Below are positions 344-35,494 of a stretch of 48,857 nt of DNA, piece by piece. The position numbers and the translations under genes are program-made. Where the stretch lies: positions 1-48,857 of the forward strand of contig JAJPJL010000030.1 in NCBI GenBank assembly GCA_021324255.1, in the 5' to 3' direction. Position 1 is the first letter of the stretch. The number at the start of each line of letters is the position of its first letter. The notes below the pieces were generated by a model. It searched no databases. It was not told the DNA's origin and saw only the letters and a list, made by a program, of their open reading frames with translations. This DNA is from Bacillota bacterium (GTDB lineage: Bacteria > Sysuimicrobiota > Sysuimicrobiia > Sysuimicrobiales > Segetimicrobiaceae).

Positions 344-481
344 TTAGACGTCGGCGACGGTACCGTAGAACGAGATGAAAAAGAGCAGCCCGAACAGGAG
401 GACCCAGAACGCGAGGTATCGCCAGTACACGATGGCGGCCGTCGGCTCCGCCGGGGTGCCGGGTGCTCTGCGTTCGGCCAT
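344..481 (-). CDS. Single-span membrane peptide of the redox operon (45 aa)
   Basis: A 45-residue protein with a short polar N-terminus and one hydrophobic segment of about 24 residues (about 17-40, including YWRYLAFWVLLFGLLFFISF). The ATG shares one base with the TGA stop of the MvhD-like gene (TGATG), so translation is probably coupled. No family is recognised. Position, size and topology resemble small accessory subunits of respiratory complexes; that role is inference. It is the last member of the redox operon before the polyprenyl synthase. Confidence 0.6.
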   Translation of the reverse strand: MAERRAPGTPAEPTAAIVYWRYLAFWVLLFGLLFFISFYGTVADV

Positions 482-1029
482 CACGTTCCCTCCCGTCCAG
501 CGGGCGCGCCGGCCTGGCCGTCCTGGGCCGCGGGCCCCGTGCGTGGCGCCGCGGAGGCCGGGCCCGCGGCCGCGGGCGCCGGCTTCCGCGGCGGGAACGC
601 GGGACCGGGCATACCCGCCACGCGGTCGCTGAACGCCCGGACCGCATCCACGAACGCCGCCCCCGCGTGCTTGCCGTAGAACAACGCGCCGATGCGCTCG
701 GGATTGACCTTTTGCCGCTCGAGGCGCCGCCGGAGCTGCTCCACGCGATCGCCGATCAGGTTGTTGCCGTAGCGGTTGAAGCAGTCGCCGAGCGGGCACC
801 CGCAGACAAACACCCCGTCGGCCCCGTTGCGCAGCGCAAACTCGAGCCACGCCGGCCGCGTAAAGCCGGAGCACGGGATCTTGATCAGCGTCACGTTCGG
901 CAGATCGCGCATCGTCCCGTCGTCGCGGACCAACCCCTGGGACGCGACCGCCCAATCGCAGAGAAAGCCGACGATCTTGGGGCCGCGGCGGCCCGCCGCC
1001 GATGGCGGACGATCGGCTAGCTCTGGCAT
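481..1029 (-). CDS. MvhD/FlpD-like iron-sulfur protein
   Basis: 182 residues related to the delta subunit of methyl-viologen-reducing hydrogenase (MvhD), a small [2Fe-2S] protein that passes electrons between a dehydrogenase and heterodisulfide-reductase-like partners. Visible family marks are VGFLCDW (Cys24), IPCSG (Cys53) and VCGCPLGDC (Cys76, 78, 83), spaced as in the family. One Cys of the usual N-terminal CC-x-W-C cluster is absent. The C-terminal 40 residues are Ala/Pro-rich. The ATG start lies 13 bases inside the ferredoxin-fused cytochrome b gene. No hydrogenase, formate dehydrogenase or Hdr subunit is present, so the usual partners are missing and the adjacent ferredoxin domain is the likely one (inference). 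Confidence 0.75.
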   Translation of the reverse strand: MPELADRPPSAAGRRGPKIVGFLCDWAVASQGLVRDDGTMRDLPNVTLIKIPCSGFTRPAWLEFALRNGADGVFVCGCPLGDCFNRYGNNLIGDRVEQLRRRLERQKVNPERIGALFYGKHAGAAFVDAVRAFSDRVAGMPGPAFPPRKPAPAAAGPASAAPRTGPAAQDGQAGAPAGREGT

Positions 1030-2174
1030 GCGCTCAGCACCTTCTCGTGGATGTCTTTTTGGAGCAGCCGCGGCAGCTCCAGCGCCTCGAACGGGCACGC
1101 GCCGACGCAGATGCCGCACTCCACGCACCGGGATTCCAGGATCACCGCCCGCAGCTTGCGCGCCTGCGCCGCCTTCGTCACACCGGGATTGGGGCTCGGC
1201 ACCATGACGATCGCGTTGTACGGGCAATCATAATAGCACAACTCGCAGCCGGTGCAGTTCGCGTCGATGACCTGCGCCACGCCCGAGTCCTTGAGGCCGA
1301 GCTCGCTCCGCGTCTCGGGCAACTGGTAGGGAATGTACAGGCCGTAGCCGATGAGGACCACGGCCAGCGCGATCAACACGAGCGGCGGCAGGAACCGCAT
1401 CGCCCAGTACGGCGTGAGGAACAGCCAGTCGATGGCCAGCGTCTGCGGGCGCTGCGAGACGACGGCCGGCGCCTGGCTGGTCACGGGGATGAGTCCCGTC
1501 AGCAGGACCACGAACCCGAGCGCGAACAGCGTCCACACGGCGGGCGGCCACACCTTGGGGTGGCGGATCCGCGTGTAGTGCCACCACAGAAACACGTAGA
1601 GGCCGACGGCGGGACCGATGTGCAGGAACAGGAGACGCGGCAGGAGCAGATCGGTCAGGCCGGTGCCGCCGAACAGCGCGTGGCGCAGCCACCCGCCGAC
1701 CAGCGGGACCTGGGCGGCGGCGTTGGCCGTCATCGCCACGAGGGCCTCGCTCCGCTGGTCCCACACCAGCATGTACCCCGTGACCCCGATGAAGCCCGTG
1801 AGCGTGAGCAGCATCATCCCGCTGATCCACGGCTCGTCCCGGGAGAACCGGAAGCGCTCCGTGAACCAGTTGCGAAAGAGATGCAGCAGCACCACGATCA
1901 TGAACCCGTCGGCGGAGTACCGGTGGATGCCCCGGATGATCTGCCCGTAGGGCACGTCGAGCGTGAGAAACTGGACGGACGTGTACGCCTGGTCGAACGA
2001 CGGCGTGTAATAAAGGAAGAGGAAGATGCCGGACAGGACCAGGACGGTGAGAAAGAGGTTCGCCAGGCCGCCGGTGTAATACAGCGGGTTGAAGTCGTCC
2101 GGGTACACCCGCGCGACGAGGGTGTCCACCCGCAGCGTCGCGGCCAGCAACCCGGCCAGCAGCCGCTTATACAC
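1017..2174 (-). CDS. Cytochrome b fused to a 2x[4Fe-4S] ferredoxin
   Basis: 385 residues. Residues 1-290 are a cytochrome b/b6-type membrane domain with both haem pairs intact: His84/His98 (HX13H) in helix B and His185/His199 (HX13H) in helix D. The Qo-loop region reads AIDWLFLTPYWAMRFLPP, so the usual PEWY is IDWL. Residues 300-385 are a bacterial ferredoxin with CTGCELCYYDCP (Cys307, 310, 313, 317) and CVECGICVGACP (Cys350, 353, 356, 360), two [4Fe-4S] sites expected on the cytoplasmic side. The start is GTG, 8 bases inside the preceding gene, with GGGAGG eight bases upstream. The fusion implies direct transfer between membrane haem and ferredoxin. It overlaps the MvhD-like gene. Confidence 0.88.
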   Translation of the reverse strand: MYKRLLAGLLAATLRVDTLVARVYPDDFNPLYYTGGLANLFLTVLVLSGIFLFLYYTPSFDQAYTSVQFLTLDVPYGQIIRGIHRYSADGFMIVVLLHLFRNWFTERFRFSRDEPWISGMMLLTLTGFIGVTGYMLVWDQRSEALVAMTANAAAQVPLVGGWLRHALFGGTGLTDLLLPRLLFLHIGPAVGLYVFLWWHYTRIRHPKVWPPAVWTLFALGFVVLLTGLIPVTSQAPAVVSQRPQTLAIDWLFLTPYWAMRFLPPLVLIALAVVLIGYGLYIPYQLPETRSELGLKDSGVAQVIDANCTGCELCYYDCPYNAIVMVPSPNPGVTKAAQARKLRAVILESRCVECGICVGACPFEALELPRLLQKDIHEKVLSACQS

Positions 2175-2361
2175 TCGTGAACCCTCCCTTGCGCAGGCAC
2201 AGCAGGATGAACGAGTACGCCAACAGGATCACGCCGATGAGCGCCCCGCCCAGGCGATGATGGCCCGTCAGTTCGCCCCAGACGATCCCGGCGGTGCAGA
2301 CGAGGCTCACCGCGGCCAGCACCACGATCCAGAGGACGTACGCGGACGCCCGGTCCGTCAT
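2167..2361 (-). CDS. Two-span membrane protein of the redox operon (64 aa)
   Basis: 64 residues with two hydrophobic segments (about 8-28 and 38-56) joined by WGELTGHHRLGG. A strong Shine-Dalgarno (GGGAGGT, four bases before ATG) supports it as a gene, and its end overlaps the GTG start of the ferredoxin-fused cytochrome b by 8 bases. No family is recognised. The two adjacent histidines in the loop are the only possible metal or haem ligands. Likely a small subunit of the complex (inference). Confidence 0.65.
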   Translation of the reverse strand: MTDRASAYVLWIVVLAAVSLVCTAGIVWGELTGHHRLGGALIGVILLAYSFILLCLRKGGFTSV

Positions 2362-2363
2362 CG

Positions 2364-2672
2364 CTACCTCCCGCTCCGCCCCGCCGGCGGTGTCAGGGGC
2401 CACGCTTGCCGTCCGGCCGGCCCGCCGCGCCGCGCGAGCAGCCACTCGTAGAGCGCCACCTTGCGGCGCACCTGGCCGGCGGCACGGTCGACCTCGTAGA
2501 GCAAGAACCCCAGCCACACCATCGCGAAGACGAGGGCGGCGCCGAGCACCACCGCCTCCGCCGCCGCGTCCAGGCTCCCGGATGCGCGCCACGCGCGCCA
2601 CGCCGCCAGGAATCGGCTCAGGCCGAGCGTCGCCGCCGCGAGCAGCGCGCAGAACAACGCGTTCCGGCGCAT
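2364..2672 (-). CDS. Two-span membrane protein of the redox operon (102 aa)
   Basis: 102 residues with a hydrophobic N-terminus (about 5-25), a second span around residues 40-60 (VVLGAALVFAMVWLGFLLYEV) and a basic, Pro-rich tail. It lies between the two cytochrome b genes in the same orientation, two bases before the 64-residue gene. No family is recognised. Codon use is as GC-rich as the neighbours, and the tail is low-complexity, so the exact end of the conserved part is unclear. Probable accessory subunit or assembly factor of the complex (inference). Confidence 0.55.
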   Translation of the reverse strand: MRRNALFCALLAAATLGLSRFLAAWRAWRASGSLDAAAEAVVLGAALVFAMVWLGFLLYEVDRAAGQVRRKVALYEWLLARRGGPAGRQAWPLTPPAGRSGR

Positions 2673-2754
2673 CGGCTACCCCGCCCCCGGCATGCCGCCC
2701 GCCGCGCGGTCCCGATCCCGAACGCCCTGGCGCGTGCGGCCCGCCCGCATGACC

Positions 2755-3918
2755 CTACGACGCCGCGGGCCGAGGCGCCGGCCGCGACGCCCCCGCGGGC
2801 GCCGGGGCGGAGGCCGCGCCGCGCCGCGCCTGCCGCCGCCGGTACGCGAGCTCCCAGAGAAAGGCGGCAAACAGCACGACCACCGTGATGCCCCAGATGT
2901 ACGGCGGGTCGCGCGAGATGACGGCGATGTTCAGCATGATGAGCGCGCTAAACCCGATCCAGTAGATGACCGCGAGCAGGCCCACCACGAAGAAGAACGG
3001 CCGCCGCGTCGGCAGCGTCTCCTTGGTACGGTCGAGAAAGGGCACCAGCATCCCGTACCCGATGAGCAGCGCCGGGGCGACCCCCGCCCACAGCGGCGGC
3101 ATGTACTTCACCACCTGGTAGAGGGCGAGGAAATACCAGTCGGAGAGGACCGGCAGCGGCGTGCGGTTGTTGTTGGCCCACTGGCCCAAGTCCGGCAGGT
3201 TGATGAAACTCACGAACGCCAGAAAGACGAGCACGAGCACGATGGCAAACGCGGAGACGTTCAGGCGCCGCCGGCGCGTGCGGTAGAAGAACGTTTCGGC
3301 CACGATGGCCAGGACGATCGAGATCCCGAAGTGGATGGAGTAGAAGCGGGTGAGCGTCCCCTGGCCGAGCGCCGGCCCGCCGAGGAAGATGTAGGCGATG
3401 GCGTGGCCCAGCCCCAGGTTGCCGATCAACGGGATGTCGTCGTAGTAGGTCGGCACCGTGAGGATCACCTTGGCCGCCCAGAACGCGCGCTGGTTCCACT
3501 CCAGGGTGTACCCCGTCACGCCGGAGATCATGGCGAGCACCAGCGAGGCAAAGAGGATCATCCACGTGAGCTCACCCGGCTTCTTGTACTCCCCGGCAAA
3601 GTACATGCGGTAGATCCGGAGCGTGATGCACGTGATGAGCATGTCCCCGCCGTACTTGTGAAGCCCGCGCACGACCCACCCGAAGGGGATGTCGTACGTG
3701 ATGTGCTCGATCGAGCGGTACGCCCCGGTCGTCGTCGGGATGTACCAGAGCATGAGCACGATCCCCGAGACGATGACGATCATCCAGGACAGCCAGACGA
3801 GGCCGCCCAGGATGTACAACGGATTGTCCTGGCGCGCCGTCTGCGTCTCGTCCCAGAGGTCCAGGCGCTGCTTGCGGTCCTGGAACCACTCCCTGAGGTT
3901 TGCGAGCACCGCCTCCAC
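2755..3918 (-). CDS. Cytochrome b lacking the haem bH ligands
   Basis: 387 residues with cytochrome b helices and a C-terminal subunit-IV-like part. In helix B the first histidine is present (RGLHKYGGD, His87) but the residue 14 places on is Arg101 (ITLRIYRMYF). In helix D His196 is present (YSIHFG) but the residue 14 places on is Phe210. In classical cytochrome b the first His of each helix binds haem bL and the second binds bH, so the bL pair is kept and the bH pair is lost. I checked this against the codons (CGG and TTC). The Qo motif PEWY reads SDWY (259-262). It follows the Rieske gene. A Rieske/cytochrome b partnership is expected, with a modified low-potential chain. Confidence 0.88.
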   Translation of the reverse strand: MEAVLANLREWFQDRKQRLDLWDETQTARQDNPLYILGGLVWLSWMIVIVSGIVLMLWYIPTTTGAYRSIEHITYDIPFGWVVRGLHKYGGDMLITCITLRIYRMYFAGEYKKPGELTWMILFASLVLAMISGVTGYTLEWNQRAFWAAKVILTVPTYYDDIPLIGNLGLGHAIAYIFLGGPALGQGTLTRFYSIHFGISIVLAIVAETFFYRTRRRRLNVSAFAIVLVLVFLAFVSFINLPDLGQWANNNRTPLPVLSDWYFLALYQVVKYMPPLWAGVAPALLIGYGMLVPFLDRTKETLPTRRPFFFVVGLLAVIYWIGFSALIMLNIAVISRDPPYIWGITVVVLFAAFLWELAYRRRQARRGAASAPAPAGASRPAPRPAAS

Positions 3919-3977
3919 AGCCTACCTCCAGCCCCTCGCCGTGCGCGCCGAGCACGCCCGGGCGCGACGCGCGCGCA

Positions 3978-4652
3978 TCACGCCTCCCGCGGCGACGCGG
4001 CGCCGCCGGGCGCGCACTGCGCGATCGCGCCGACCTCGGCGCCGGTGACGACGATGTCGTCGCCGTGGATCTCGAACCGGAAGTACCGTGCGCCCCGGGG
4101 CGCGGGTCCCGAGATGACGTTCCCGGGATTGTCCGGGTACTCTGGGTCATAGATGCTGAAGTGGCACGGGCACGCCATGAGCGCATGCTGCTCGAACCCC
4201 GGCGGCCGGAACCCGCCGTAGCCCGCCGATACTTCATGCCAGTCGGACACGTAGTTGTAAATGCAGCCCAGGTGCGGGCAGATCCGGGAGAACAGCACGA
4301 TGTCGGTCTCCCCGTCGAAGCCCACGTACCCCTCGCTGTTCACGAACCTCACCTTCTTGGGCAGGCGGATCGCCACGCCCGGGACATTGCTCGCTTCCTG
4401 CCCCTCCGGCGTGTACTGGACGAACCGCTGCACGTACGTGAAATAAAACGAGTCCCACGGCTTGGCCAGCTGGGATACCTTGCCCACGACCTGGGCGCCG
4501 CCCTGCGGGAGGTCGGGGGTGATCGTGAAGATGCCCCACGGCTTGTCGTTCGGCTTGAGAAAGCGGAAGAACGGCGACAGCACGGCGATGAGCGCCCCCA
4601 CCACGGGGATCGCCGTCAGCGCCTTGAGCACGCCGCGCCGGTCGAGCTTCAT
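3978..4652 (-). CDS. Rieske [2Fe-2S] protein
   Basis: 224 residues. The N-terminus has a Tat-like/uncleaved anchor (DRRGVLKAL followed by a hydrophobic stretch to about residue 32). The Rieske boxes are CPHLGC (Cys125, His127, Cys130) and CPCHFS (Cys161, Cys163, His164), giving two Cys and two His cluster ligands plus the disulfide pair Cys130/Cys163. It takes the high-potential electron from quinol at the Qo site and hands it to cytochrome c. A good Shine-Dalgarno (GGGAGG) precedes the ATG. It sits between the dihaem cytochrome and the cytochrome b, the expected order for a quinol:cytochrome c oxidoreductase. Confidence 0.93.
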   Translation of the reverse strand: MKLDRRGVLKALTAIPVVGALIAVLSPFFRFLKPNDKPWGIFTITPDLPQGGAQVVGKVSQLAKPWDSFYFTYVQRFVQYTPEGQEASNVPGVAIRLPKKVRFVNSEGYVGFDGETDIVLFSRICPHLGCIYNYVSDWHEVSAGYGGFRPPGFEQHALMACPCHFSIYDPEYPDNPGNVISGPAPRGARYFRFEIHGDDIVVTGAEVGAIAQCAPGGAASPREA

Positions 4653-4683
4653 GCCGTGCGCCTCCCTCGCCCCTGCGCCCGCC

Positions 4684-5556
4684 CTACTTGATCGGCGGGT
4701 GTTTGTAGAAGAACGTGTAGATATAGTCCACGACGTCGTTCAGCTGCTCGGCGCTCATCTTGCCGCGAAAACTCGGCATCGGCCCGCCGCCGTCGAGGAT
4801 CGCATTGGTCAGGTCCGCCCCGTTGCGTTGCACCATGTAGTTGATGTCGGTGAAGATGCCGGGCCCCTTCCCGTGCGACCACGACCAGAGCTGCGCCGCC
4901 ATCTCGGGGCCGCGCGGCCCCTTGCCATCGCCGTTCGTGCCGTGGCACTGCGCGCACTGCGCCTCGTAGATGCGCTTCCCCTCGCTCAGCGCCTGCGGCG
5001 TCGTGCGGAACATCATCTCGTAGACGTTCGCGTCCCAGCGGTCCTGGTTGGAGAGCGTCTGGGCTTTGTTGGCGCCGAACGACGCTTCGGGCCCGAACGC
5101 CGGCATCGCCGTGTATGCGCGTCCGTTGGTCACCGTCTGGTACATGATCGCCGGGGTGATGACGCTCTCCAGGTCGCGGTTGTGAAAATCCGCGGGCTTG
5201 CTCGGCACCGTCGGCCGGTGAACGGTGATGCCGAACAATCCCGTGACCAGCGCCAGTACGTCGTGCTGGGGCTCCACGAGCGTCGGCGCCATCGGACCGT
5301 TGCCCCGGCCGTCCGTCCCGTGGCACACCGCGCAGTTTGCGTCGAACACCTGCTTCCCGTGCACGGCGTCGGGGACGATCGGCCGGTCGTTCTCGTCCGC
5401 GACGAGCGGGGTCTCGACTTCCTCCGTCGGCGGGAGCGCGAGATCGAGCCCGGGCCCCCGCAGGCTCGTCTGCGGCTGGCACCCGGCGGCCAGGACGGCC
5501 GCAGCGATCACCAGCAACATTGCGGCCGAACGCGTCCGGCCGGACCCTGTCGGCAT
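4684..5556 (-). CDS. Dihaem cytochrome c lipoprotein
   Basis: 290 residues from the ATG that follows AAAGGA. A lipoprotein signal peptide ends in LAAGC (Cys26), so the protein should be anchored outside the cytoplasmic membrane. Two c-type haem sites are seen: CAVCH (75-79) and CAQCH (201-205). MPAF (Met151) and MPSF (Met260) are likely axial methionines, one per domain. The reading frame stays open upstream, but that part is arginine-rich and crosses the terminator hairpin. It is the first gene of the redox operon and the likely electron acceptor of the Rieske protein. Its haems need the ccm genes upstream. Confidence 0.9.
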   Translation of the reverse strand: MPTGSGRTRSAAMLLVIAAAVLAAGCQPQTSLRGPGLDLALPPTEEVETPLVADENDRPIVPDAVHGKQVFDANCAVCHGTDGRGNGPMAPTLVEPQHDVLALVTGLFGITVHRPTVPSKPADFHNRDLESVITPAIMYQTVTNGRAYTAMPAFGPEASFGANKAQTLSNQDRWDANVYEMMFRTTPQALSEGKRIYEAQCAQCHGTNGDGKGPRGPEMAAQLWSWSHGKGPGIFTDINYMVQRNGADLTNAILDGGGPMPSFRGKMSAEQLNDVVDYIYTFFYKHPPIK

Positions 5557-6726: not shown

Positions 6727-7028
6727 CTCGCGCCCTCCGGTCCCGCGGCGGCGTCGCGCTCGAAGATCGCCAGCGCGTCGAGGCGGCGCAACACCGCGAC
6801 CGCCTCGGCCTGATAGCCGGCGCGCAGCGCCGCGTAGTCGCCGTCGGCGAGCTTGCCGGTTTCGTGGTCGAGATCGAGGTCTCTCAGCGCGCGGTATGCC
6901 GCCTCGCGCGCCGCGAGCAACCGCTGCCGCTCCGCGTCCGGCGCCGGCGCCGGCACGGGACGCCACAGCGGCCAGAGGACAAACACCGCGGCCGCGCACG
7001 CGAGGACGACGAGGCCGGCCTCGGCCAT
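6723..7028 (-). CDS. CcmI-like small membrane protein
   Basis: 101 residues. One N-terminal span (AGLVVLACAAAVFVLWPLW) is followed by a charged helical part (ERQRLLAAREAAYRALRDLD) typical of the short CcmI/CcmH-linked proteins found after ccmF. It lacks the RCxxC motif of CcmH, so it is not the apocytochrome thiol reductase. Its ATG shares a base with the ccmF stop. A role in holding the maturation complex or apocytochrome is inferred from position only. Confidence 0.6.
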   Translation of the reverse strand: MAEAGLVVLACAAAVFVLWPLWRPVPAPAPDAERQRLLAAREAAYRALRDLDLDHETGKLADGDYAALRAGYQAEAVAVLRRLDALAIFERDAAAGPEGAS

Positions 7029-9010
7029 CACTCCCCGGCGCTCCAGGCGCCGCGAAACGCCGGCGCCGCGCGGGGCATGAGGCGGCGCTCCGGGATCATC
7101 GCGATCACCGCGCCGAGCGTGAGCACCGCGCCGCCTGCCCACATCCACGAGACGAGCGGGTTCACGAGCAACCGCAGGGTGGCGCGGCCGCTCGGCGTCC
7201 ACCCCGCGAGCGTCACGTAGAGGTCGTCGCGCGGCGTGCTCCGCAGCGCGACGTCGGTCGTGACGTCGCCCGTGAGATAGAGGTTGCGCCGGGCGGCGGC
7301 GGGCCCGAGATCGCGGGCGCCCTCGAACACGCGCAGCGCCGCGGTGATCGCGAGCGCGCCGCCGCGCGCCGACTGCGACAACCCGTCGAAGCGCACGCGG
7401 TACCGCTGGATCGCCGCGGCCTCGCCGGGCGCCAGCGTGACGACCCGCTGCGAGGCGAACACCGACGAGCCCGTGATCCCGCAGAACAGCAGCAGGATGC
7501 CGAGGTGCACGATGTATCCGCCGTAGCGCCGGCGGTTGTGCGCGACGAGCGCCAGGAGCGCGCGCAGCGGGGACTCGCCGCGGTGCGCGCGCCGCACGCG
7601 CACCCCGCCGGCAAACTCCATGGCGACGGTCGCGGCGACGAACGCGCACAGCGCAAAGGCGAGCAGCGGCCCGGGCGCGCGCATGCCGGCCGCGAGCAGC
7701 GCCAATCCCACCACCACCGCGGCCGCGGCGGGCGCCTGCAGGCTGCGGCGCAGGCCGCCGGGGGAGGCCCGCCGCCACGCGACCGCGGGGCCGATCCCCA
7801 TGAGCAGCAGGATGCCGAACGCGAACGGCACGACGATATGGTCGAAGAACGGCGGCCCGACGTTGATCGCGCGGCCGGCCACCGCCGCCGACACGATGGG
7901 AAACACCGTCCCCAAAAACACCGAGAACGCCACCGCGAGAAACAGCACGTTGTTCAACACAAAGGCGCTCTCCCGCGACACCGCCGCGTCGAGCTCGTGG
8001 CGGCCGCGCAGCTCGTCCCACCGCCATGCGGCGAGGGCAAACGCCGCGACGAGGGCGAGCGCCAGGAAGCCGAGGAAGAACGCGCCGAGCGACGACTCCG
8101 TGAACGAGTGAATGCTGCTCAGCACGCCGCTCCGCGTCAGGAACGTCCCGAAGACGGCCAGCCCGAAGGCGAGAATCACGAGGACGACGTTCCACCGCGC
8201 CAGCATCTGGCGCCGTTCCTGGATCATGACGGAGTGGAGAAACGCGGTGGCCACGAGCCAGGGCATGAGCGCGGCGTTTTCCACCGGGTCCCAGGCCCAG
8301 TACCCGCCCCACCCCAGCACCACGTACGACCACTTGGCGCCGAACATGAGCCCCATGGTGAGGCAGTACCACGCCCACAGCATCCAGCGCCGGGCGAGAA
8401 GCACGCCGCCGCCGTCCACGGATCCCGCGGCGAGGCTCGCCGTCACGATCGCAAAGGGGACCGTCATCCCCACGAACCCGAGGTACAGCGTCGGCGGATG
8501 AATCGCCATCCAGGGGTTCAACAGCAGCGGGTTCATCCCGCGGCCGTCGGCGGGCGGGAACGGCGACGTGGCAAACGGCGAGGTGACGAACGCGAGCATG
8601 AAAAGAAAGAACGCCGAGATCCCGCCGAACACGGTCGTGAGCGCGGGCACGAGCGGCGGCCTCGTCCGCCCGATGCTCCGCAGCGCCGCGAGTGTGTACG
8701 CGGACAGGATGAGCGCCCACAGCAGCAGCGAGCCCTCCATCCCGCCCCAGAACGACGTCAGATCGTAGATGAGCGGCTGGGCGTCGCGAACGTGCGACAC
8801 CACGTATCGAAACGAATAGTCGCGCCCGGCCAGCGCCGCCCACAACACCGCCGCGGCGACGGCCTCCAGCAACGCGACGGCGACGAGCCCGTGGACGGCG
8901 CTGCGCGCCAGCTCGGGCCGGCGGGTGCGGGCGCCGAGGATGGACGCCGCCATCGCGTACAGCGCGAGCACCAACGCGGCGAGGAGCGCAAACCGTCCGA
9001 GATCAGCCAC
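7028..9010 (-). CDS. ccmF: CcmF cytochrome c haem lyase subunit
   Basis: 660 residues, a normal CcmF length, with about 15 hydrophobic segments. The N-terminal signature SFWGGMEGSLLLW is at 87-99 and the tryptophan-rich WWD haem-handling motif WGGYWAWDPVENAA at 234-247. It ligates haem from CcmE to exported CXXCH apocytochromes. The start is GTG with AGGGA upstream. It sits in the order ccmC-ccmD-ccmE-ccmF and serves the dihaem cytochrome encoded in the next operon. Confidence 0.93.
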   Translation of the reverse strand: MADLGRFALLAALVLALYAMAASILGARTRRPELARSAVHGLVAVALLEAVAAAVLWAALAGRDYSFRYVVSHVRDAQPLIYDLTSFWGGMEGSLLLWALILSAYTLAALRSIGRTRPPLVPALTTVFGGISAFFLFMLAFVTSPFATSPFPPADGRGMNPLLLNPWMAIHPPTLYLGFVGMTVPFAIVTASLAAGSVDGGGVLLARRWMLWAWYCLTMGLMFGAKWSYVVLGWGGYWAWDPVENAALMPWLVATAFLHSVMIQERRQMLARWNVVLVILAFGLAVFGTFLTRSGVLSSIHSFTESSLGAFFLGFLALALVAAFALAAWRWDELRGRHELDAAVSRESAFVLNNVLFLAVAFSVFLGTVFPIVSAAVAGRAINVGPPFFDHIVVPFAFGILLLMGIGPAVAWRRASPGGLRRSLQAPAAAAVVVGLALLAAGMRAPGPLLAFALCAFVAATVAMEFAGGVRVRRAHRGESPLRALLALVAHNRRRYGGYIVHLGILLLFCGITGSSVFASQRVVTLAPGEAAAIQRYRVRFDGLSQSARGGALAITAALRVFEGARDLGPAAARRNLYLTGDVTTDVALRSTPRDDLYVTLAGWTPSGRATLRLLVNPLVSWMWAGGAVLTLGAVIAMIPERRLMPRAAPAFRGAWSAGE

Positions 9011-9055
9011 CGAAGCGTTCCCTGGGTTGCCGGCCGGCGCGGAGCATCCCGCGCC

Positions 9056-9523
9056 CTACTGCGCCGTTGTGGGATCCGCGGGATTGTACCGGGTCGGGCA
9101 CTTGGCGAGCAGCGTCGTCGCGTCGAACGTGCCGTGCCGGTCGAGCGCCCCTTCGACGACGACCTGGCGGCCCTCCGCGAAGATATCGGGCACCACGCCG
9201 CTGTAGACGACCGGCAGCGTACGGCGTCCGTCGGTGACCGCGAACCGCAGATGCCGGTGCGACGCGTCCCACCGCACCGTGCCGGCGGCCACCGTACCGC
9301 CGAGCCGCACCCGCTCCGGCCCGATCCCCGGGGCGCGTTGCTCGAGCTCGCTCACGGTGACCCAGTACGTCGCGCCCTGCTGGATCCCGCCGTAGACGAG
9401 ATACGCCAGCGACAGCACGACGACGGCCGTCCCCGCGGCGAACACGAGCGCGCGGCGCGGGCGGCCGGCGCGCGCCGCCCGCGGGAGCGCGCGAGGCACC
9501 GCGATCCCGGCGGCGTCCCTCAT
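9056..9523 (-). CDS. ccmE: CcmE haem chaperone, cysteine (CXXXY) type
   Basis: 155 residues. A basic N-terminus and one membrane anchor (about 25-45) precede the OB-fold domain (VRLGGTVAAGTVRWD, LPVVYSGVVPDIFAEGRQVVVEG). In most CcmE proteins haem is bound by the histidine of HXXXY. Here the site is AKCPTRY, with Cys142 and Tyr146. Cysteine-type CcmE is known from the 'System I*' variant in some deltaproteobacteria and archaea, which lack CcmH; no ccmH is seen in this window. The start codon ATG has no obvious Shine-Dalgarno. Confidence 0.9.
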   Translation of the reverse strand: MRDAAGIAVPRALPRAARAGRPRRALVFAAGTAVVVLSLAYLVYGGIQQGATYWVTVSELEQRAPGIGPERVRLGGTVAAGTVRWDASHRHLRFAVTDGRRTLPVVYSGVVPDIFAEGRQVVVEGALDRHGTFDATTLLAKCPTRYNPADPTTAQ

Positions 9524-9575
9524 GGCCCGGCGACCGGCGGGACGCCCGCGAGCCTCGTACCCGGCCGGGGGCGGG

Positions 9576-9767
9576 TCACCGCGGCGTCCCCACCGGCGGG
9601 GGCGTCACCGGTGCCCCCGTGGGATGACGCGCCTCCGCGCCGGCGCCAACGCGCGCCGCGAGCTCATCCACTTCCCGCTCCAGGCGCCGGCTGCGCCGTG
9701 AAAGGCCGTACACGTAGACGAAGAGCGCGATCCACACGACGGCGAAGGCCCAAAACAGATACGTCAT
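9576..9767 (-). CDS. ccmD: CcmD-like small membrane protein
   Basis: 63 residues: a single N-terminal span (LFWAFAVVWIALFVYVYGLS), then a basic coiled-coil-like stretch (RRSRRLEREVDELAARV) and a Pro-rich tail. This matches the usual CcmD plan, a small protein that links CcmC and CcmE. It starts three bases after ccmC ends and precedes ccmE. The symbol rests on size, topology and place in the operon, since CcmD sequence is poorly conserved. Confidence 0.72.
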   Translation of the reverse strand: MTYLFWAFAVVWIALFVYVYGLSRRSRRLEREVDELAARVGAGAEARHPTGAPVTPPPVGTPR

Positions 9768-9770
9768 GTC

Positions 9771-10463
9771 CTACGCCCGCTCGTCGATCAGGGCCTGGAG
9801 CCGGAGCTCCAGGACGCCCAGCCGGATCCGGGCGCGCACGAGCACGATGTAGAGCAGGCTCCATGCCACCAGCCCGGCCAAGAGCGCCCATGCCATGGAC
9901 GGCGCGAGGCCGATCGAGCGCGTCGTAAAGATGACCGGGCTCAGGGCGCGCAGGTACCGCGCGGAGAGCCACACGAGCGGCACATCCACAAACCCGACGA
10001 TGGCAAACACCGCCGCGAAGCGGGCCTGCCGCGGGTCGTCGCCCGCGGCCGCGCGGAGCACCAGGTACCCGGCGTAGATCAGCCACAAGATGAGGTAGGT
10101 CACGAGCTGCGGATCCCAGGTCCACCAAGTGCCCCACACCGGACGCGCCCACAGGGATCCCGTGATGATGACCAGTGTGGCAAACAGCAGGCCGATCTCC
10201 GCCGCGGACGCCCCGACTACGTCCCACTCCTGCCGCCCGGTCTGCAGGTACCGGATCCCGGCCCATGCCGCGTGGCCGAACGCGACAAAGCCGACCCACG
10301 CCAGCGGCAAGTGCACGTAGAAGATCCGTTGGATGTCCCCCATCACGACCTCGCGCCGGGCGTACACAAACGCCCCGTACAGCGCCGCCAGCATCACGGC
10401 CCCGCAGGCCCAGCCGAGCGCGGCGTCGGAGAATCGGGAGTCGCGCGCGTGTATCACCGCCAC
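9771..10463 (-). CDS. ccmC: CcmC haem delivery protein
   Basis: 230 residues with six hydrophobic segments. The haem-handling WWD motif WGTWWTWDP is at 110-118 and the first conserved histidine at His51 (FYVHLPLAW). The second periplasmic histidine of the family, usually in a TLHP-like context, appears to be replaced: the matching stretch reads RALSPVIF. CcmC loads haem on to CcmE. The GTG start lies only about 5 bases below the predicted transcription start, so the message may be leaderless. First gene of the ccmC-D-E-F operon. Confidence 0.9.
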   Translation of the reverse strand: MAVIHARDSRFSDAALGWACGAVMLAALYGAFVYARREVVMGDIQRIFYVHLPLAWVGFVAFGHAAWAGIRYLQTGRQEWDVVGASAAEIGLLFATLVIITGSLWARPVWGTWWTWDPQLVTYLILWLIYAGYLVLRAAAGDDPRQARFAAVFAIVGFVDVPLVWLSARYLRALSPVIFTTRSIGLAPSMAWALLAGLVAWSLLYIVLVRARIRLGVLELRLQALIDERA

Positions 10464-20309: not shown

Positions 20310-21278
20310 GTGGCACGGTGTGCCGCATCCATCCTGGCGCTCTGCGCGCTCGCGTCCGCAGCGGCGCTTCCTCGTTGGGCGGCCGCGGCGGAGCCGCTGG
20401 CGCTGGAGTTCAACGCGGTCCAGGTGCCGTCAGCCGCTCAGCCCACGACCCAGGTGCCCGGAACCGTGGGAGGCCTCGCGATGACCCTGTCGATGACCAA
20501 GGCGGCGATCGCCGGGTGTCCCGGCGGCGACACGTGCGGAACGTTTACCGCCGCCGTCTCGGGATTGAAAGGAGCAGCGAGCGCGCAGTTCGGGCAGATG
20601 CGCGGCTCGTTTGCGTGTTCCGCGAGCGAATGCTCGCTCGCGCTGGCCAGCACAACGGGCGTCTTCGCCGGCGTGTCCGCGACCACGCTCGCGCTGAACG
20701 TCGGGGGACCCACGACGGGTTCGATCAGCACGTCTTTCCCGAACCACGGGGCCTGGGTCGCGAGTGTTGCGCAGGCGGCGTCCGTGCTGAAGGCCGAGGG
20801 GACGTTACCGGCTTCGATGAGCATCGCGGATCTGGTGAACGACGCGGCGCGCACCAACAACGGAAGCTCCTCCGGCGGTACCGGCCACGGCACCGGCAAC
20901 GCAGGCTCGAGCAACCAGGCAGCCGGCGGAGGCAATTCGAGCGGACACGGTAACGGCGGCGGCAGCGGCAATGGCGGCGGTAACGGCAATGGCGGCGGTA
21001 ACGGCAATGGTGGCGGCAACGGTAACGGCAATGGCGGCGGCAACGGCAATGGCGGCGGCAACGGCAACGGTGGCGGCAACGGTAACGGCAACGGCGGCGG
21101 CAACGGCAATGGCGGCGGTAACGGCAACGGCAATGGCGGCGGTAACGGCAACGGCAATGGCGGCGGTAACGGCAACGGCAATGGCGGCGGTAACGGCAAT
21201 GGCGGCGGTAACGGCAATGGCGGCGGTAACGGCAACGGCGGCGGTAACGGCAACGGCGGCGGCCACGGGCATCAATAA
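20310..21278 (+). CDS. Secreted protein with a long Gly/Asn repeat tail
   Basis: 322 residues. GTG start after GGGGAG. A signal peptide (about 1-26, ending WAAAA) precedes a globular part of about 160 residues with several Cys (AGCPGGDTCGTFTAAV; FACSASECSLALAS). From about residue 190 the chain becomes Gly/Ser/Asn/His-rich, then a regular GGGNGN/GNGNGGGN tail of about 105 residues, ending GGHGHQ. The tail should be flexible and hydrophilic. Function unknown; it lies between the sigma/partner pair and a pilin cluster, so a surface or matrix role is plausible. Confidence 0.8.
   Translation: MARCAASILALCALASAAALPRWAAAAEPLALEFNAVQVPSAAQPTTQVPGTVGGLAMTLSMTKAAIAGCPGGDTCGTFTAAVSGLKGAASAQFGQMRGSFACSASECSLALASTTGVFAGVSATTLALNVGGPTTGSISTSFPNHGAWVASVAQAASVLKAEGTLPASMSIADLVNDAARTNNGSSSGGTGHGTGNAGSSNQAAGGGNSSGHGNGGGSGNGGGNGNGGGNGNGGGNGNGNGGGNGNGGGNGNGGGNGNGNGGGNGNGGGNGNGNGGGNGNGNGGGNGNGNGGGNGNGGGNGNGGGNGNGGGNGNGGGHGHQ
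20952..21267 (+). repeat. In-frame tandem repeat coding Gly/Asn units
   Basis: Imperfect 18-base units (type GGCGGCGGTAACGGCAAT) mix with 24-base units that carry one more GN pair. All keep the frame. Units differ mostly at third positions (AAC/AAT, GGC/GGT), so the array is not a fresh expansion. Length variation between strains is likely. Confidence 0.9.
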
Positions 21279-31478: not shown

Positions 31479-32459
31479 TCATCCGCGGCGGAGCCGCGCC
31501 GCCGCGGTCTCGGCGTAGTACGTGAGCACGAGATCCGCGCCGGCGCGCCGGATCGCCGTGAGCGCCTCGAGCATCGCCCGGTCCTCGTCCAACCAGCCGC
31601 GGGCGGCGGCCGCTTTGAGCATCGCGTACTCACCGCTCACCTGGTAGGCCGCCGTCGGCAGGCGGAGCTCGGCCTTGACCCGCGCGAGCACGTCGAGGTA
31701 CGGAAGGGCGGGCTTGACCATGACGAGATCGGCGCCTTCCTCGACATCCAGGCGCGCCTCCCGCACCGCCTCGTCGACGTTCGCGGGGTCGAGCTGATAC
31801 GCGCGGCGATCGCCAAACCGCGGCGCCGATTCGGCCGCGTGGCGGAACGGGTCGAAGAACGCCGAGGCGTACTTGGCGGCGTACGCCAACACCGCGACGT
31901 CCCCGCGGCCGCGGCCGTCGAGCGCGCGCCGGATCGCCCCGACCTGCCCGTCCATCATGCCCGATGGCGCGACGACGTCGGCCCCCGCGTCGGCGTACGA
32001 GACCGCGATCCGCGCGTACGCGTCCAGGGTGGCGTCGTTGTCCACGGTCTCGCCTGCCAGCACGCCGCAGTGGCCATGGCTCGTGTATTCGCACAGGCAG
32101 AGGTCGCCGATGATCACGAGCCGGTCGCCGGTCTCGGCGCGAATGCGGCGCATCGACCGCTGCACGATCCCGTCGGGGTCCCAGGCGCTCGAACCCGCAT
32201 CATCCTTGCGCGTGGGGATCCCGAACAGCATGACCGCCGGGATGCCGAGCTCCGCCAGCCGCCCGCACTGCTCGACGAGGCTCGAGACCGTGTGCTGCAC
32301 GTGGCCCGGCAAAGGGTCGAGCGGGGCCGGCTTGGAGAGCGCCTCCTTGACGAAGAGCGGGGCGATCAGATCGCCCGGATCGAGGACCGTCTCCCGAACC
32401 ATCTCGCGCAGCGTCGCCGTGCGCCGAAGCCGCCGCATGCGCCGGAGCGGAAACGTCAT
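31479..32459 (-). CDS. hemB: Porphobilinogen synthase (zinc type)
   Basis: 326 residues. The metal loop DLCLCEYTSHGHCG has the three cysteines of zinc-dependent enzymes. The two active-site lysines are in LAYAAKYAS and LVMVKPALPYLD. It condenses two 5-aminolevulinate molecules to porphobilinogen. It starts 16 bases below hemD, and the end is followed closely by hemL. Confidence 0.95.
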   Translation of the reverse strand: MTFPLRRMRRLRRTATLREMVRETVLDPGDLIAPLFVKEALSKPAPLDPLPGHVQHTVSSLVEQCGRLAELGIPAVMLFGIPTRKDDAGSSAWDPDGIVQRSMRRIRAETGDRLVIIGDLCLCEYTSHGHCGVLAGETVDNDATLDAYARIAVSYADAGADVVAPSGMMDGQVGAIRRALDGRGRGDVAVLAYAAKYASAFFDPFRHAAESAPRFGDRRAYQLDPANVDEAVREARLDVEEGADLVMVKPALPYLDVLARVKAELRLPTAAYQVSGEYAMLKAAAARGWLDEDRAMLEALTAIRRAGADLVLTYYAETAAARLRRG

Positions 32460-32475
32460 CCCTGGCCCACCCCTT

Positions 32476-33285
32476 TCATCCCTCCCTCGCCTCGCGGCCG
32501 CGCTCCGCGAACGCCTCGCGCAGCGCCTCCACCAGGCCGCGGAGCGTGTAGTCCCGGGCCACCGTTCCGACCGGAAAACCCAGGCCCCGCGCGGTCTCCG
32601 CGGTCACGGGTCCAATGCATGCGACCACGGCCGCGCCGAGCACCCGCGGGGCATCGGTCCCCAGGAGCTCGGCGAAGTTTCGCACGGTGGACGAGCTCGT
32701 AAACGTCACCGCGTCGGGATGCTCGCGCAGGAGCCGGCGGCGCGCCTCGGGCGCGTGGTCGCGCTCCACGTCCGTGCGGTACGCCGGCACCACGTCCACG
32801 ATGGCGCCGCGCGCGCGGAGGCCCGCCGGCAGCGCGTCGCGGGCCGCCGCGGCCCGCGGCAGGAGCACGCGGGCGTGGCGCAGGTCCGTGCCGGCGAACG
32901 CGTCCACCAATGCCTCCGCGCGGAACTCCGTGGGCGCGAGATCGACACGCAGGCCCGCCGCCCTGAGCGCGCCGGCCGTACCCGGCCCGATCGCCGCGAC
33001 GCGCACGGTGCGGAGCGCGCCGGCTGCGGCTCCCAAGGCGCGCGCGCGGTCGCACAGGGCGGCCACGGCGTTTGGGCTCGTCAAGACCACCCAGGCGTAC
33101 TCCGGGAGCCGGGCGATCGCGGCGTCGAGCGCTGCTGGATCGTCCGGGGGGACGATCCGGATCGTCGGAAATTCCAGGACCGCGGCGCCTTCCGCCTCGA
33201 GCAGCGCGCGCAGCGGGCCCGCCTGTGCGCGCGCGCGTGTGACGACGACGCGGCGGCCGGACAGCGGGCGGGCGGAGGCGATCAC
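32476..33285 (-). CDS. hemD: Uroporphyrinogen-III synthase
   Basis: 269 residues with the two-lobed HemD layout: VVVTRARAQAGPLRALLEAE, YAWVVLTSPNAVAALCDRAR, then DAVTFTSSSTVRNFAELLG and ACIGPVTAETARGLGFPVG. It closes the tetrapyrrole ring with inversion of ring D. GTG start overlaps the hemC stop (GTGA). HemD diverges fast, so operon position adds weight. Confidence 0.92.
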   Translation of the reverse strand: MIASARPLSGRRVVVTRARAQAGPLRALLEAEGAAVLEFPTIRIVPPDDPAALDAAIARLPEYAWVVLTSPNAVAALCDRARALGAAAGALRTVRVAAIGPGTAGALRAAGLRVDLAPTEFRAEALVDAFAGTDLRHARVLLPRAAAARDALPAGLRARGAIVDVVPAYRTDVERDHAPEARRRLLREHPDAVTFTSSSTVRNFAELLGTDAPRVLGAAVVACIGPVTAETARGLGFPVGTVARDYTLRGLVEALREAFAERGREAREG

Positions 33286-34241
33286 AACCCGTGGCGGGGC
33301 GCCGCCGCGCCCGCCGGTTCGCCGGCGGCGGTGAGCGCGAGCACGTCGCCCGCGCGGACGAGCAGCCGGTCGGCCAGCGACATGCCGAGCCACCGGGCGG
33401 CGCCCGCCGGTCCCCCGGCGATCTGCCGGCGTACCGCGCGCCCGTCCTCGCGCGCGATGAGCGCCTCCAGGATCGTGCGCCCGTCCCTGACCACGGCCAG
33501 CGCCGCGGCGGGGACGCGGCACCCCGTTCCGAGGCGGGCGAGGAACGCGCGCTCCGCCGTGACCGCCTCCCGCGTCGGGGCATCGTCGAGCGCGGCGACC
33601 AGGGCCCGGCAGTCGGTATCGCCCCGCCGGACCTGGACCGCGAGCGCGCCCTGCGCGGGGGCGGGCAGCATCACCTCGGGTGGGAGCCACTCCGTGACGC
33701 GATCCTGCCATCCCATCCGGAGCAGGCCGGCGCCCGCGAGGCAGACGGCGTCGCACTCGCCCCGCTCCATCTTGGCGAGCCGTGTGTCGATGTTGCCGCG
33801 GATCGGCACGGGAACGAGATCCGGGCGATGCGCCAGGACCTGCGCGGCGCGACGCGGGCTGCTCGTCGCGACGCGGGCGCCCGCGGGCAGATCGGCGAGC
33901 CGCGCGCCCGTGCGGGAGACGAGCACGTCGCGCGGATCGGCCCGGTGCAGGATGGCCGCGATCACCAGCCGGGGATGGGGCTCCGTGGGGAGATCCTTTG
34001 CGCTGTGCACCGCAAGGTCGCACCGGCCGTCGGCGACCGCGGCCTCGAGCTCTCCGGCAAAGAACCCCACGCCGCCGAGCCATTCGAGCGGGACATCGGG
34101 TGCGCGATCGCCGGCGGTCTTGACGATCACCGTCTCGGTGCGGAGCCCGGGCACGAGACGGGCAAGCGCATCCGTCACCAGCTGCGTCTGGCGCAGGCTG
34201 AGCCGGCTGCCGCGCGTGCCGACGCGGAGCGTGCGGGTCAT
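33282..34241 (-). CDS. hemC: Hydroxymethylbilane synthase
   Basis: 319 residues. Typical blocks are LRVGTRGSRLSLRQTQLV, HSAKDLPTEPHPRLVIAA, ATSSPRRAAQVLAHRPDL and VPIRGNIDTRLAKM. The cofactor-binding cysteine is in LGTGCRVPAAALAV. It polymerises porphobilinogen. The ATG overlaps the hemA stop (ATGA). The frame is open further upstream but without family sequence. Confidence 0.95.
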   Translation of the reverse strand: MTRTLRVGTRGSRLSLRQTQLVTDALARLVPGLRTETVIVKTAGDRAPDVPLEWLGGVGFFAGELEAAVADGRCDLAVHSAKDLPTEPHPRLVIAAILHRADPRDVLVSRTGARLADLPAGARVATSSPRRAAQVLAHRPDLVPVPIRGNIDTRLAKMERGECDAVCLAGAGLLRMGWQDRVTEWLPPEVMLPAPAQGALAVQVRRGDTDCRALVAALDDAPTREAVTAERAFLARLGTGCRVPAAALAVVRDGRTILEALIAREDGRAVRRQIAGGPAGAARWLGMSLADRLLVRAGDVLALTAAGEPAGAAAPRHGL

Positions 34242-35494
34242 CGCCCCGGCCCTTCGCGCCCCGCCGGTGCCTCCGGTGGCGTGGCGCCGGACTGCACCGC
34301 CGCGAGCAGCGCGGTGATCGGCCGGTGCAGCACCTTGTTGACGACGCGGCGGAGCACGGCCCGCACCGCGACCGCCTCCGCGGGATCGAGGCTGCCGAGA
34401 CGCGCGCGGGCCCGTTGCCACTCCTGTTCCACGATGGCATCGGCCTCGGCCCGCGCCTCACCGATGAGCGACGCCGCGCGGCGGCCCGCGCGAGCGCGGA
34501 GAAATGCCCGCACGTCGGCGTCGACGAGTGCCTGGGCGCGGCACAGACCTCCCGCGGCCGCCGGGTCCGTGCGCGGGGCCATGAGATCGTCGATATCGCA
34601 CAGATGCACCCCGGCAAGACGCCGGACCGAGGGATCCACATTTCGCGGCACGGCGATGTCGACGATGACGAGCGGCAGCCGGCGCCCGGCGCCCGCCCGC
34701 GCCACCGCGGCCTCGGTCACGACGGCCTCCCGCGCCCCCGTGCATACGATCACCGCATCCGCCCGGGCGAGTTGCGCTTCGATCGCGCCGAGCGACGCGA
34801 TCTCTCCGCCGACCCGCGCGGCGAGCTCGCCGGCGGCGCTCGCGGTGCGATTTGCCACGACGACCGTCCTGGCGCCGGCCTCGGCGACGGCTTGCGCCGC
34901 AAGCCTTGCCATCTTGCCTGCGCCGACCACGAGCACGCGGCGGCCGGCGAGCGACCCCAGGATGCGGGCGGCGCGGGCCGCCGCCGCATAGGGTACCGAC
35001 GCGGCGCGCCCCCCGCCGTCCACTTCACGGCGCAGACGCCGGCCGGTGGCGAGGGCCGCCCGAAATAGCGCGTCGAGCTTCGGCCCCACCGTCCCGGCGG
35101 CGCGCGCGGCGGCCAGGGCCGTCCGCATCTGCCCGAGGATCTCGGGCTCGCCGATGATCATCGAGTCGAGGCCGGCGGCGACCCGGAAGGCATGGCGCAC
35201 GGCGTCCTGGCCCGCCGACACCCGGACACTCGCCGACCCGTCACCGGCCTCGCCCGCGAAGAACGCCGCGGCCGCCCGCCCGGCCGCGTCCGGGTCCGGT
35301 CCCGCCACGTACCACTCGACGCGGTTGCAGGTCGAGACGAGCACGGCCTCGGCGACCGCCGCGCCGGCGCACATGGCGCGCAGCGCCTCCGGGACCGCCT
35401 CAGGCTCGAGCGCAAACTTCTCGCGCTGCGCCAGCGGCACCGCGTGATGGCTCACGCCGCAGACGACGTACTCGCGCACACCGTGACTCATCAT
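34238..35494 (-). CDS. hemA: Glutamyl-tRNA reductase
   Basis: 418 residues. The catalytic cysteine lies in VLVSTCNRVEWYVAG, followed by GLDSMIIGEPEILGQMRTAL and the NADPH-binding RRVLVVGAGKMARLAAQAVA. The C-terminal dimerisation helix is present. It catalyses the first step of C5-pathway haem synthesis. Two ATGs are adjacent at the start. First gene of the hemACDBL operon; the 180-base gap above it carries the PLPEFGNDAL remnant. Confidence 0.95.
   Translation of the reverse strand: MMSHGVREYVVCGVSHHAVPLAQREKFALEPEAVPEALRAMCAGAAVAEAVLVSTCNRVEWYVAGPDPDAAGRAAAAFFAGEAGDGSASVRVSAGQDAVRHAFRVAAGLDSMIIGEPEILGQMRTALAAARAAGTVGPKLDALFRAALATGRRLRREVDGGGRAASVPYAAAARAARILGSLAGRRVLVVGAGKMARLAAQAVAEAGARTVVVANRTASAAGELAARVGGEIASLGAIEAQLARADAVIVCTGAREAVVTEAAVARAGAGRRLPLVIVDIAVPRNVDPSVRRLAGVHLCDIDDLMAPRTDPAAAGGLCRAQALVDADVRAFLRARAGRRAASLIGEARAEADAIVEQEWQRARARLGSLDPAEAVAVRAVLRRVVNKVLHRPITALLAAVQSGATPPEAPAGREGPGR

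Follow-up and report, generated by a model that had tools for sequence, protein, structure and literature searches.

For decades it has been debated whether electrons cross from one cytochrome b of complex III to the other during catalysis, and the question has been probed mainly with engineered mutants. In fused-cytochrome-b bc1 complexes of R. capsulatus/R. sphaeroides, the quinol-oxidising (Qo) site was switched off by G158W and a ligand of the high-potential haem (bH) was replaced in the other half (H212N); this cross-inactivated dimer is active, in milliseconds, via transfer between the two low-potential haems (bL), the only path left (PMC4330944). Here we analyse an operon on a 48,857-nucleotide contig (JAJPJL010000030.1 of assembly GCA_021324255.1, positions 1 to 48,857; referred to as the window) which is contig C108 of the 3.7 Mb genome of a bacterium labelled Bacillota and placed by GTDB in the Sysuimicrobiota. 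The operon codes for a dihaem cytochrome c, a Rieske protein, two cytochromes b (b1 and b2, the latter fused to a ferredoxin), an MvhD/FlpD-like protein, and three small membrane proteins (sm1, sm2, and sm3). We consider it likely that its products form an asymmetric Rieske/cytochrome b complex, with b1 and b2 dividing between them the two jobs of a normal cytochrome b dimer.

The operon has in common with cytochrome bc1/b6f a Rieske protein, a cytochrome b with a Qo motif and bL, and a c-type cytochrome, and its genome context implies quinol:cytochrome c activity as well. It differs from them by having two non-identical cytochromes b, one without bH and the other without Qo motifs, by a dihaem cytochrome c instead of c1 or f, and, on the cytoplasmic side, by MvhD and a ferredoxin fused to one cytochrome b. 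While the engineered asymmetric bc1 is a laboratory construct, b1 and b2 are encoded by two natural, separate genes of deeper divergence and come with a ferredoxin arm. For the complexes Kuste4569-4574 and Kustd1480-1485 of the anammox bacterium Kuenenia, quinol bifurcation has been proposed to drive low-potential reduction via cytoplasmic Fe-S clusters, and anammox Rieske/b complexes have been argued on potential grounds to make NAD(P)H (PMC12954380). A high-potential Rieske protein with Ser/Tyr and Fe-S clusters on the cytoplasmic side are shared with the operon. However, the anammox complexes have an FAD/NAD(P) reductase and multihaem cytochromes, and their b dimers were modelled as symmetric, with one more haem at the centre. 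In the operon, the b pair is asymmetric and comes with MvhD and a ferredoxin fused to b2, and no FAD/NAD(P) oxidoreductase gene was seen between 344 and 5556 or in the flanks inspected. A homologous small [2Fe-2S] protein is known from MvhAGD-HdrABC and related archaeal complexes (5odc), with four cysteines in common, but the MvhD encoded here is bacterial and is tied to a membrane cytochrome b-ferredoxin rather than to a hydrogenase or HdrA. The same module is found in other phyla as fusions of cytochrome b, ferredoxin, and MvhD (b-Fd-MvhD) which, unlike the operon, consist of a single polypeptide with no Rieske or b1 gene nearby.

No description of this gene set was found in the open-licence literature, and complex III and cytochromes go unmentioned in the main text of the Sysuimicrobiota paper (PMC11604079). 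The "heterodimeric cytochrome b" of Nitrospira was dismissed as a precedent because it concerns bd oxidase.

Complementary losses in the two cytochromes b

Haem ligands were compared in an alignment of 65 cytochromes b, including five canonical controls. Both p-side (bL) histidines are invariant in b1. Its bH ligand on helix B is replaced by Arg in 21/21 sequences from two phyla, and the position of the helix-D ligand is mostly occupied by an aromatic residue (F, Y, W; M, L or N in a few). All four haem-ligating histidines are present in every b2, in every b-Fd-MvhD fusion, and in the five controls; in b2, H84, H98, H185, and H199 are invariant together with all 8 Cys (15- and 32-sequence alignments). 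As for the Qo site, the b1 proteins from Sysuimicrobiota and from locus L104 of a different phylum retain the cd1 helix (FWAAKV/FWATKV) and the ef loop (SDWYFLALYQ). Both motifs are lost in b2, and the fusions have lost the cd1 motif and mostly also the ef motif. Neither cytochrome b of the operon combines bL, bH, and Qo in one and the same protein.

An initial annotation, made from the letters of the window alone, had claimed the same genes and motifs, and all of these, along with their end coordinates, were found on the minus strand. The cytochrome b which it described as devoid of bH ligands is b1, which lacks both and keeps the bL His pair. The other, said to keep both haems and to be fused to a 2x[4Fe-4S] ferredoxin, is b2, with four His and two CxxCxxCxxxC motifs. 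When it called the cytochromes b "unlike" it was correct, yet this understates the case since the losses are complementary.

In a maximum-likelihood tree, all b1 sequences from the two phyla form one clade (99/95) which is positioned beside canonical cytochrome b (99/97). The b2 proteins and the fusions are found outside of the b1/canonical group, and the b2 and fusion groups are themselves weakly supported. The closest relative of b1 by sequence is b6 (1vf5, 5e-38). As b1 is a single clade across two phyla, the loss of its bH ligands is old and has been maintained. We thus take b1 to be an altered canonical cytochrome b of single origin, and b2 appears to belong to a separate lineage. That the bH ligands are missing through a sequencing error or because b1 is a pseudogene was rejected, given the Arg found in 21/21 b1 sequences from two phyla. 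A recent duplication of one cytochrome b was rejected because b1 groups with canonical cytochrome b (99/97), apart from b2. Where contigs allow, b1 was never seen without b2. By analogy, b1 and b2 together appear to correspond in nature to the bc1 dimer that was cross-inactivated by engineering.

The Rieske protein is unusually divergent. It scores 18.6 bits with the Pfam Rieske model, which is under the cut-off of 20.3 bits, it matches NCBIfam Rieske-type models at 8e-9 to 2e-7, and its match to solved Rieske proteins is weak. Its boxes are complete (CPHLGC and CPCHxSIY) and include the Ser and Tyr which are known to raise the potential in other Rieske proteins. Apart from that of the window, 17 Rieske proteins were recovered from relatives, and each of them has CPHLGC/CPCH; L104 has CVHLGC/CPCH. 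On the high-potential side, the Rieske protein likely passes its electrons to the dihaem cytochrome c.

Conservation of the gene set and of the ferredoxin/MvhD arm

The nearest named relatives are metagenome-assembled genomes (MAGs) labelled Bacillota, Armatimonadetes, or "Terrabacteria group ANGP1", which we assign to phylum CSP1-3/Sysuimicrobiota (PMC11604079) by inference from the MAG names; this phylum of soil bacteria is little known. For the fusion census, 61 genomes were searched at the protein level and 386 with profiles, with the order (43 genomes) standing for the phylum; the genome sets used for relatives overlap, so that counts are not independent. The b2-ferredoxin fusion (b2-Fd) was found in 37 of the 43 genomes of the order, with an FlpD gene directly downstream in 37/37, and this is the only FlpD of the genome in 31/43. 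The conservation of b2-Fd with MvhD is far beyond chance. The whole set (cytochrome c, Rieske protein, b1, b2-Fd, MvhD) is present in loci L002-L020 wherever the contig is long enough. Its surroundings are conserved as well, with genes for cytochrome c maturation on the upstream side and a polyprenyl synthase gene on the downstream side.

Six of the 43 genomes are devoid of the fusion. Two of these (G040 and G041) have other cytochrome b matches, some of them near contig ends, and are 85-89% complete. The other four (G016, G029, G035, and G037) represent a single genus, g9, and are also devoid of any haem-copper oxidase. Counted as one evolutionary event, this loss of complex and oxidase is suggestive of a link to oxygen respiration, but is not proof. 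The g9 genomes have three other FlpD genes each, and the genus looks as if it had shifted to anaerobic life.

In locus L104 (G151), which is from a different phylum, the same set is encoded: dihaem cytochrome c, Rieske protein, b1, two small proteins, b2-Fd, and MvhD. Two further genomes from this second phylum (loci L115 and L116) have dihaem cytochrome c, b1, b2-Fd, and MvhD together with CcoO/FixO-like genes. The gene set, for which the initial annotation had suggested a search across genomes, is thus real and conserved across the phylum, and the full set also exists in a second phylum. Frequent absence of the ferredoxin fusion or of the MvhD-like gene from related operons would have spoken against a joint system; both are present in 37/37 cases from Sysuimicrobiota and in 3/3 from the second phylum, and in other phyla b, ferredoxin, and MvhD are never parted, being one polypeptide.

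An AlphaFold2 (AF2) model of b2-Fd (predicted local distance difference test, pLDDT, 84; predicted template modelling score, pTM, 0.81) aligns with mycobacterial cytochrome b over 263 residues (Z 28, root-mean-square deviation 2.2). Six membrane helices (A-F) precede the ferredoxin in this model, which therefore places the ferredoxin on the bH (cytoplasmic) side. The MvhD-like protein scores 84 bits with PF02662 (cut-off 22.3) and matches the solved methanogen MvhD (5odc_D) at 3e-18. Its residues C24, C53, C78, and C83 are kept in all relatives read except L011, where the reading is devoid of the PCSG Cys. No HdrA or hydrogenase partner is encoded in the operon, and its MvhD is the only FlpD in the window genome (G000). 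A role of MvhD as part of a hydrogenase/HdrA system was rejected because it is the sole FlpD in 31 genomes.

Outside of the order, cytochrome b-2[4Fe-4S]-MvhD occurs as one polypeptide in at least 13 of about 340 sampled genomes, and additionally in Chitinophagaceae (loci L021-L024, L090, L091, and L093-L103). All haem and [4Fe-4S] ligands are invariant in these fusions. The AF2 model of a fusion protein has a pLDDT of 83, and a structure comparison of the fusion models (VIA-align) matched only cytochrome b folds, being silent on the ferredoxin and MvhD domains. COX1, COX2, and SCO1 genes accompany most fusion genes, without Rieske or b1; the one COX1 tested is ba3-like. The fusion proteins often have an extra C-terminal transmembrane segment and an extracytoplasmic domain ("SFKHxGK...HMR"). 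Electron input to the oxidase and copper/haem maturation of the oxidase are candidate roles. Judged from these sequences, b-Fd-MvhD appears to be a functional unit. The window operon agrees with this stand-alone module in the four His, the 2x[4Fe-4S] ferredoxin, and MvhD (as a separate gene). It is devoid of SCO1 and of a linkage to ba3-type COX1/COX2, and its b2 does not have the extra C-terminal domain.

Probable respiratory role and possible routes of the low-potential electron

Sixteen genomes yielded no cytochrome b other than b1 and b2, and COX1-family genes are present in 16/16 of them. The marker of alternative complex III, ActD (PF11821), was found in 0/43 genomes of the order, with Thermus composti positive as control, and alternative complex III as the actual complex III was rejected on these grounds. 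In those 16 genomes, quinol:cytochrome c reduction thus has no known candidate besides the b1/b2 complex. With no other candidate for complex III in many genomes, the least that this complex must do is to sustain ordinary respiration. Genes of MqnA/D type (futalosine menaquinone route, the route searched) were found in only 3/43 genomes, and the futalosine route was therefore dropped as a pointer to the quinone potential.

We propose that quinol would be oxidised at the Qo site of b1, with one electron passing via the Rieske protein and the dihaem cytochrome c to an oxidase, as suggested by the motifs. The second electron would be transferred to bL of b1 and, because b1 has no bH, it must cross from there to bL of b2. 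Within b2 it would move from bL to bH, as is known for the family. From bH it could pass through both [4Fe-4S] clusters and MvhD to reach a soluble cytoplasmic acceptor of low potential, which would be quinol-driven bifurcation, possibly being shared with a quinone site beside bH. We infer the b1:b2 heterodimer, the bL-bL step, and the exit direction from the sequences. Textbook potentials (menaquinone -75 mV, Rieske +150 to +300 mV) would arithmetically allow a bL down to -300 to -450 mV, less the membrane-potential cost. For the last step, exit via ferredoxin/MvhD and quinone reduction near bH with ferredoxin/MvhD as entry are about equally open. That the split-function core comes with a net exit of electrons through ferredoxin/MvhD is plausible, though not quite probable. 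It is only tentatively that we put forward the fullest version, an obligatorily asymmetric complex in which electrons flow from quinol across bL-bL to ferredoxin/MvhD, so that low-potential reduction inside complex III would be standard phylum-wide.

Several observations weigh against this proposal, the split-function core together with exit through the arm. Among the genes of the operon there is none for an acceptor enzyme. In the 31 genomes with a single FlpD, no Mvh or MvhD-fused HdrA partner was seen. To drive electrons from quinol to a ferredoxin at -400 mV against the membrane potential is energetically demanding. In the window genome, there are two further, canonical-looking bc-type Rieske/cytochrome b loci (L107 and L108 on contigs C46 and C13 of G000), one with a cytochrome c gene and the other adjoining a COX1 gene, and the b1/b2 complex would be an additional complex there. 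No Rieske gene is found on the contig stretches seen of L115 (1796-5125) and L116 (2-5535), whose b1 is also devoid of the cd1 FW motif; this set is possibly a Rieske-less version. Finally, b-Fd-MvhD is found without Rieske and b1, and the module therefore needs neither this partner nor bifurcation, which is the main reason why bifurcation is not accepted outright. As to the overall interpretation in the initial annotation, a b1 with Qo but no bH and a b2 with bL and bH but no Qo motifs, evidence that was not available to it, favour the view that the low-potential branch runs via the second cytochrome b. In contrast, quinol-driven reduction of a low-potential acceptor, for which that annotation had allowed "or the reverse", is not established, given the missing acceptor enzyme, the service to ordinary respiration, and the b-Fd-MvhD modules without Rieske and b1 elsewhere.

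The same b1/b2 complex could be operated with the arm as an entry. A low-potential donor in the cytoplasm (ferredoxin or a reduced flavoenzyme) would then feed electrons into MvhD, from which they would reach bH of b2 by way of the [4Fe-4S] clusters and reduce quinone there, in addition to a normal Q-cycle with Qo in b1 and Qi in b2. A similar route has long been proposed for cyclic electron flow through cytochrome b6f. Such an entry is thermodynamically downhill, and it fits the stand-alone modules without Rieske as well as the sole complex III candidacy in 16 genomes. However, there is no dedicated donor gene in the operon, the quinone site near bH of b2 is only putative, and a simple ferredoxin:quinone reductase leaves the bH loss of b1 unexplained. 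We regard entry as a serious possibility, although a doubtful one. The sole occurrence with oxidases implies a complex III role, and the adjoining cytochrome c maturation and polyprenyl synthase genes are as expected for a housekeeping complex. Both would also fit an ordinary Q-cycle complex III with diverged b subunits, in which ferredoxin/MvhD acts as a redox sensor or stabiliser with little flux. This is unlikely in view of the eight invariant [4Fe-4S] Cys, the four MvhD Cys kept in nearly all relatives, and an MvhD which is retained in 37/37 genomes and is fused in other phyla.

It is more unlikely still that the genes of a Rieske/b1 complex merely share an operon with those of a separate trans-membrane reductase made up of b2-Fd and MvhD. 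Such a reductase might, for example, resemble the CcoG proteins of ferredoxin type and serve in copper or haem maturation of oxidases. The fusions from other phyla, with their COX1, COX2, and SCO1 neighbours and their frequent C-terminal extracytoplasmic domain, argue for such a reductase. But b1 alone would be a bH-less dead end, its losses are complementary to those of b2, without which it was never seen where contigs allow, and the Sysuimicrobiota operon has neither SCO1 nor the C-terminal domain on b2.

Operon layout, neighbouring genes, and implications

The eight genes are encoded in one direction on the minus strand (5556-344) in the order dihaem cytochrome c, Rieske, b1, sm1, sm2, b2-Fd, MvhD-like, sm3. 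Overlaps of a few bases exist between sm2 and b2, b2 and MvhD, and MvhD and sm3. Each named part is backed by Pfam and NCBIfam models (Table 1). No Pfam family was matched by sm1 and none above the Pfam cut-off by sm2. The sm3 protein has 80% identity in the nearest relative.

Table 1. Features of the operon in the window
Feature	Coordinates	Strand	Length (aa, amino acids)	Characteristics
Dihaem cytochrome c lipoprotein	4684..5556	-	290	CAVCH and CAQCH; Cytochrome_CBB3 6e-26; LAAGC lipobox
Rieske [2Fe-2S] protein	3978..4652	-	224	CPHLGC...CPCHFSIY; Tat-like (twin-arginine) DRRGVLK, membrane-anchored
Cytochrome b1	2755..3918	-	387	PF00033 3e-33, PF00032 4e-6; haem ligands compared in the alignment; Qo motifs
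sm1, small membrane protein	2364..2672	-	102	hydrophobic; conserved in the operon of many relatives
sm2, small membrane protein	2167..2361	-	64	conserved in many relatives
Cytochrome b2-ferredoxin fusion	1017..2174	-	385	PF00033 2.5e-31 and Fer4 models; C-terminal 2x[4Fe-4S]
MvhD/FlpD-like protein	481..1029	-	182	predicted [2Fe-2S] electron carrier; PF02662 9e-24
sm3, small membrane protein	344..481	-	45	one hydrophobic stretch; start overlaps MvhD stop

The same contig carries genes for cytochrome c maturation (CcmF, CcmE, CcmC-like) and haem synthesis (HemB-type, HemA-type) at 7028-10463 and 31479-35494. The region 20310-21278 is of low complexity; its minus strand codes for a Pro/Leu repeat (LPLPPPLP...) and the plus-strand frame has no Pfam match. 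Among relatives, only a COX1-like gene (PF00115) follows, directly after MvhD/sm3, in families f3, f4, and f7 (L012:5243-6634 and, downstream of MvhD, G013, G014, G017, G019, G022, G025, G028, G031, and G034). In L008, the COX1-like gene is followed by a monohaem cytochrome c. The COX1-like protein of L012 has only six His and so probably does not work as an oxidase.

A cross-inactivated dimer appears to have arisen naturally and to have been kept phylum-wide, so that the bL-bL step would be obligatory. The b1/b2 system would permit a direct biochemical test of electron crossing between the halves and of quinol-driven low-potential reduction. If electrons exit through the arm, the latter process, until now no more than a proposal for anammox bacteria, would have a far wider distribution. 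If they enter, the ferredoxin:quinone route via a b-type complex, which has long been sought, would here exist in a form fixed in the genes.

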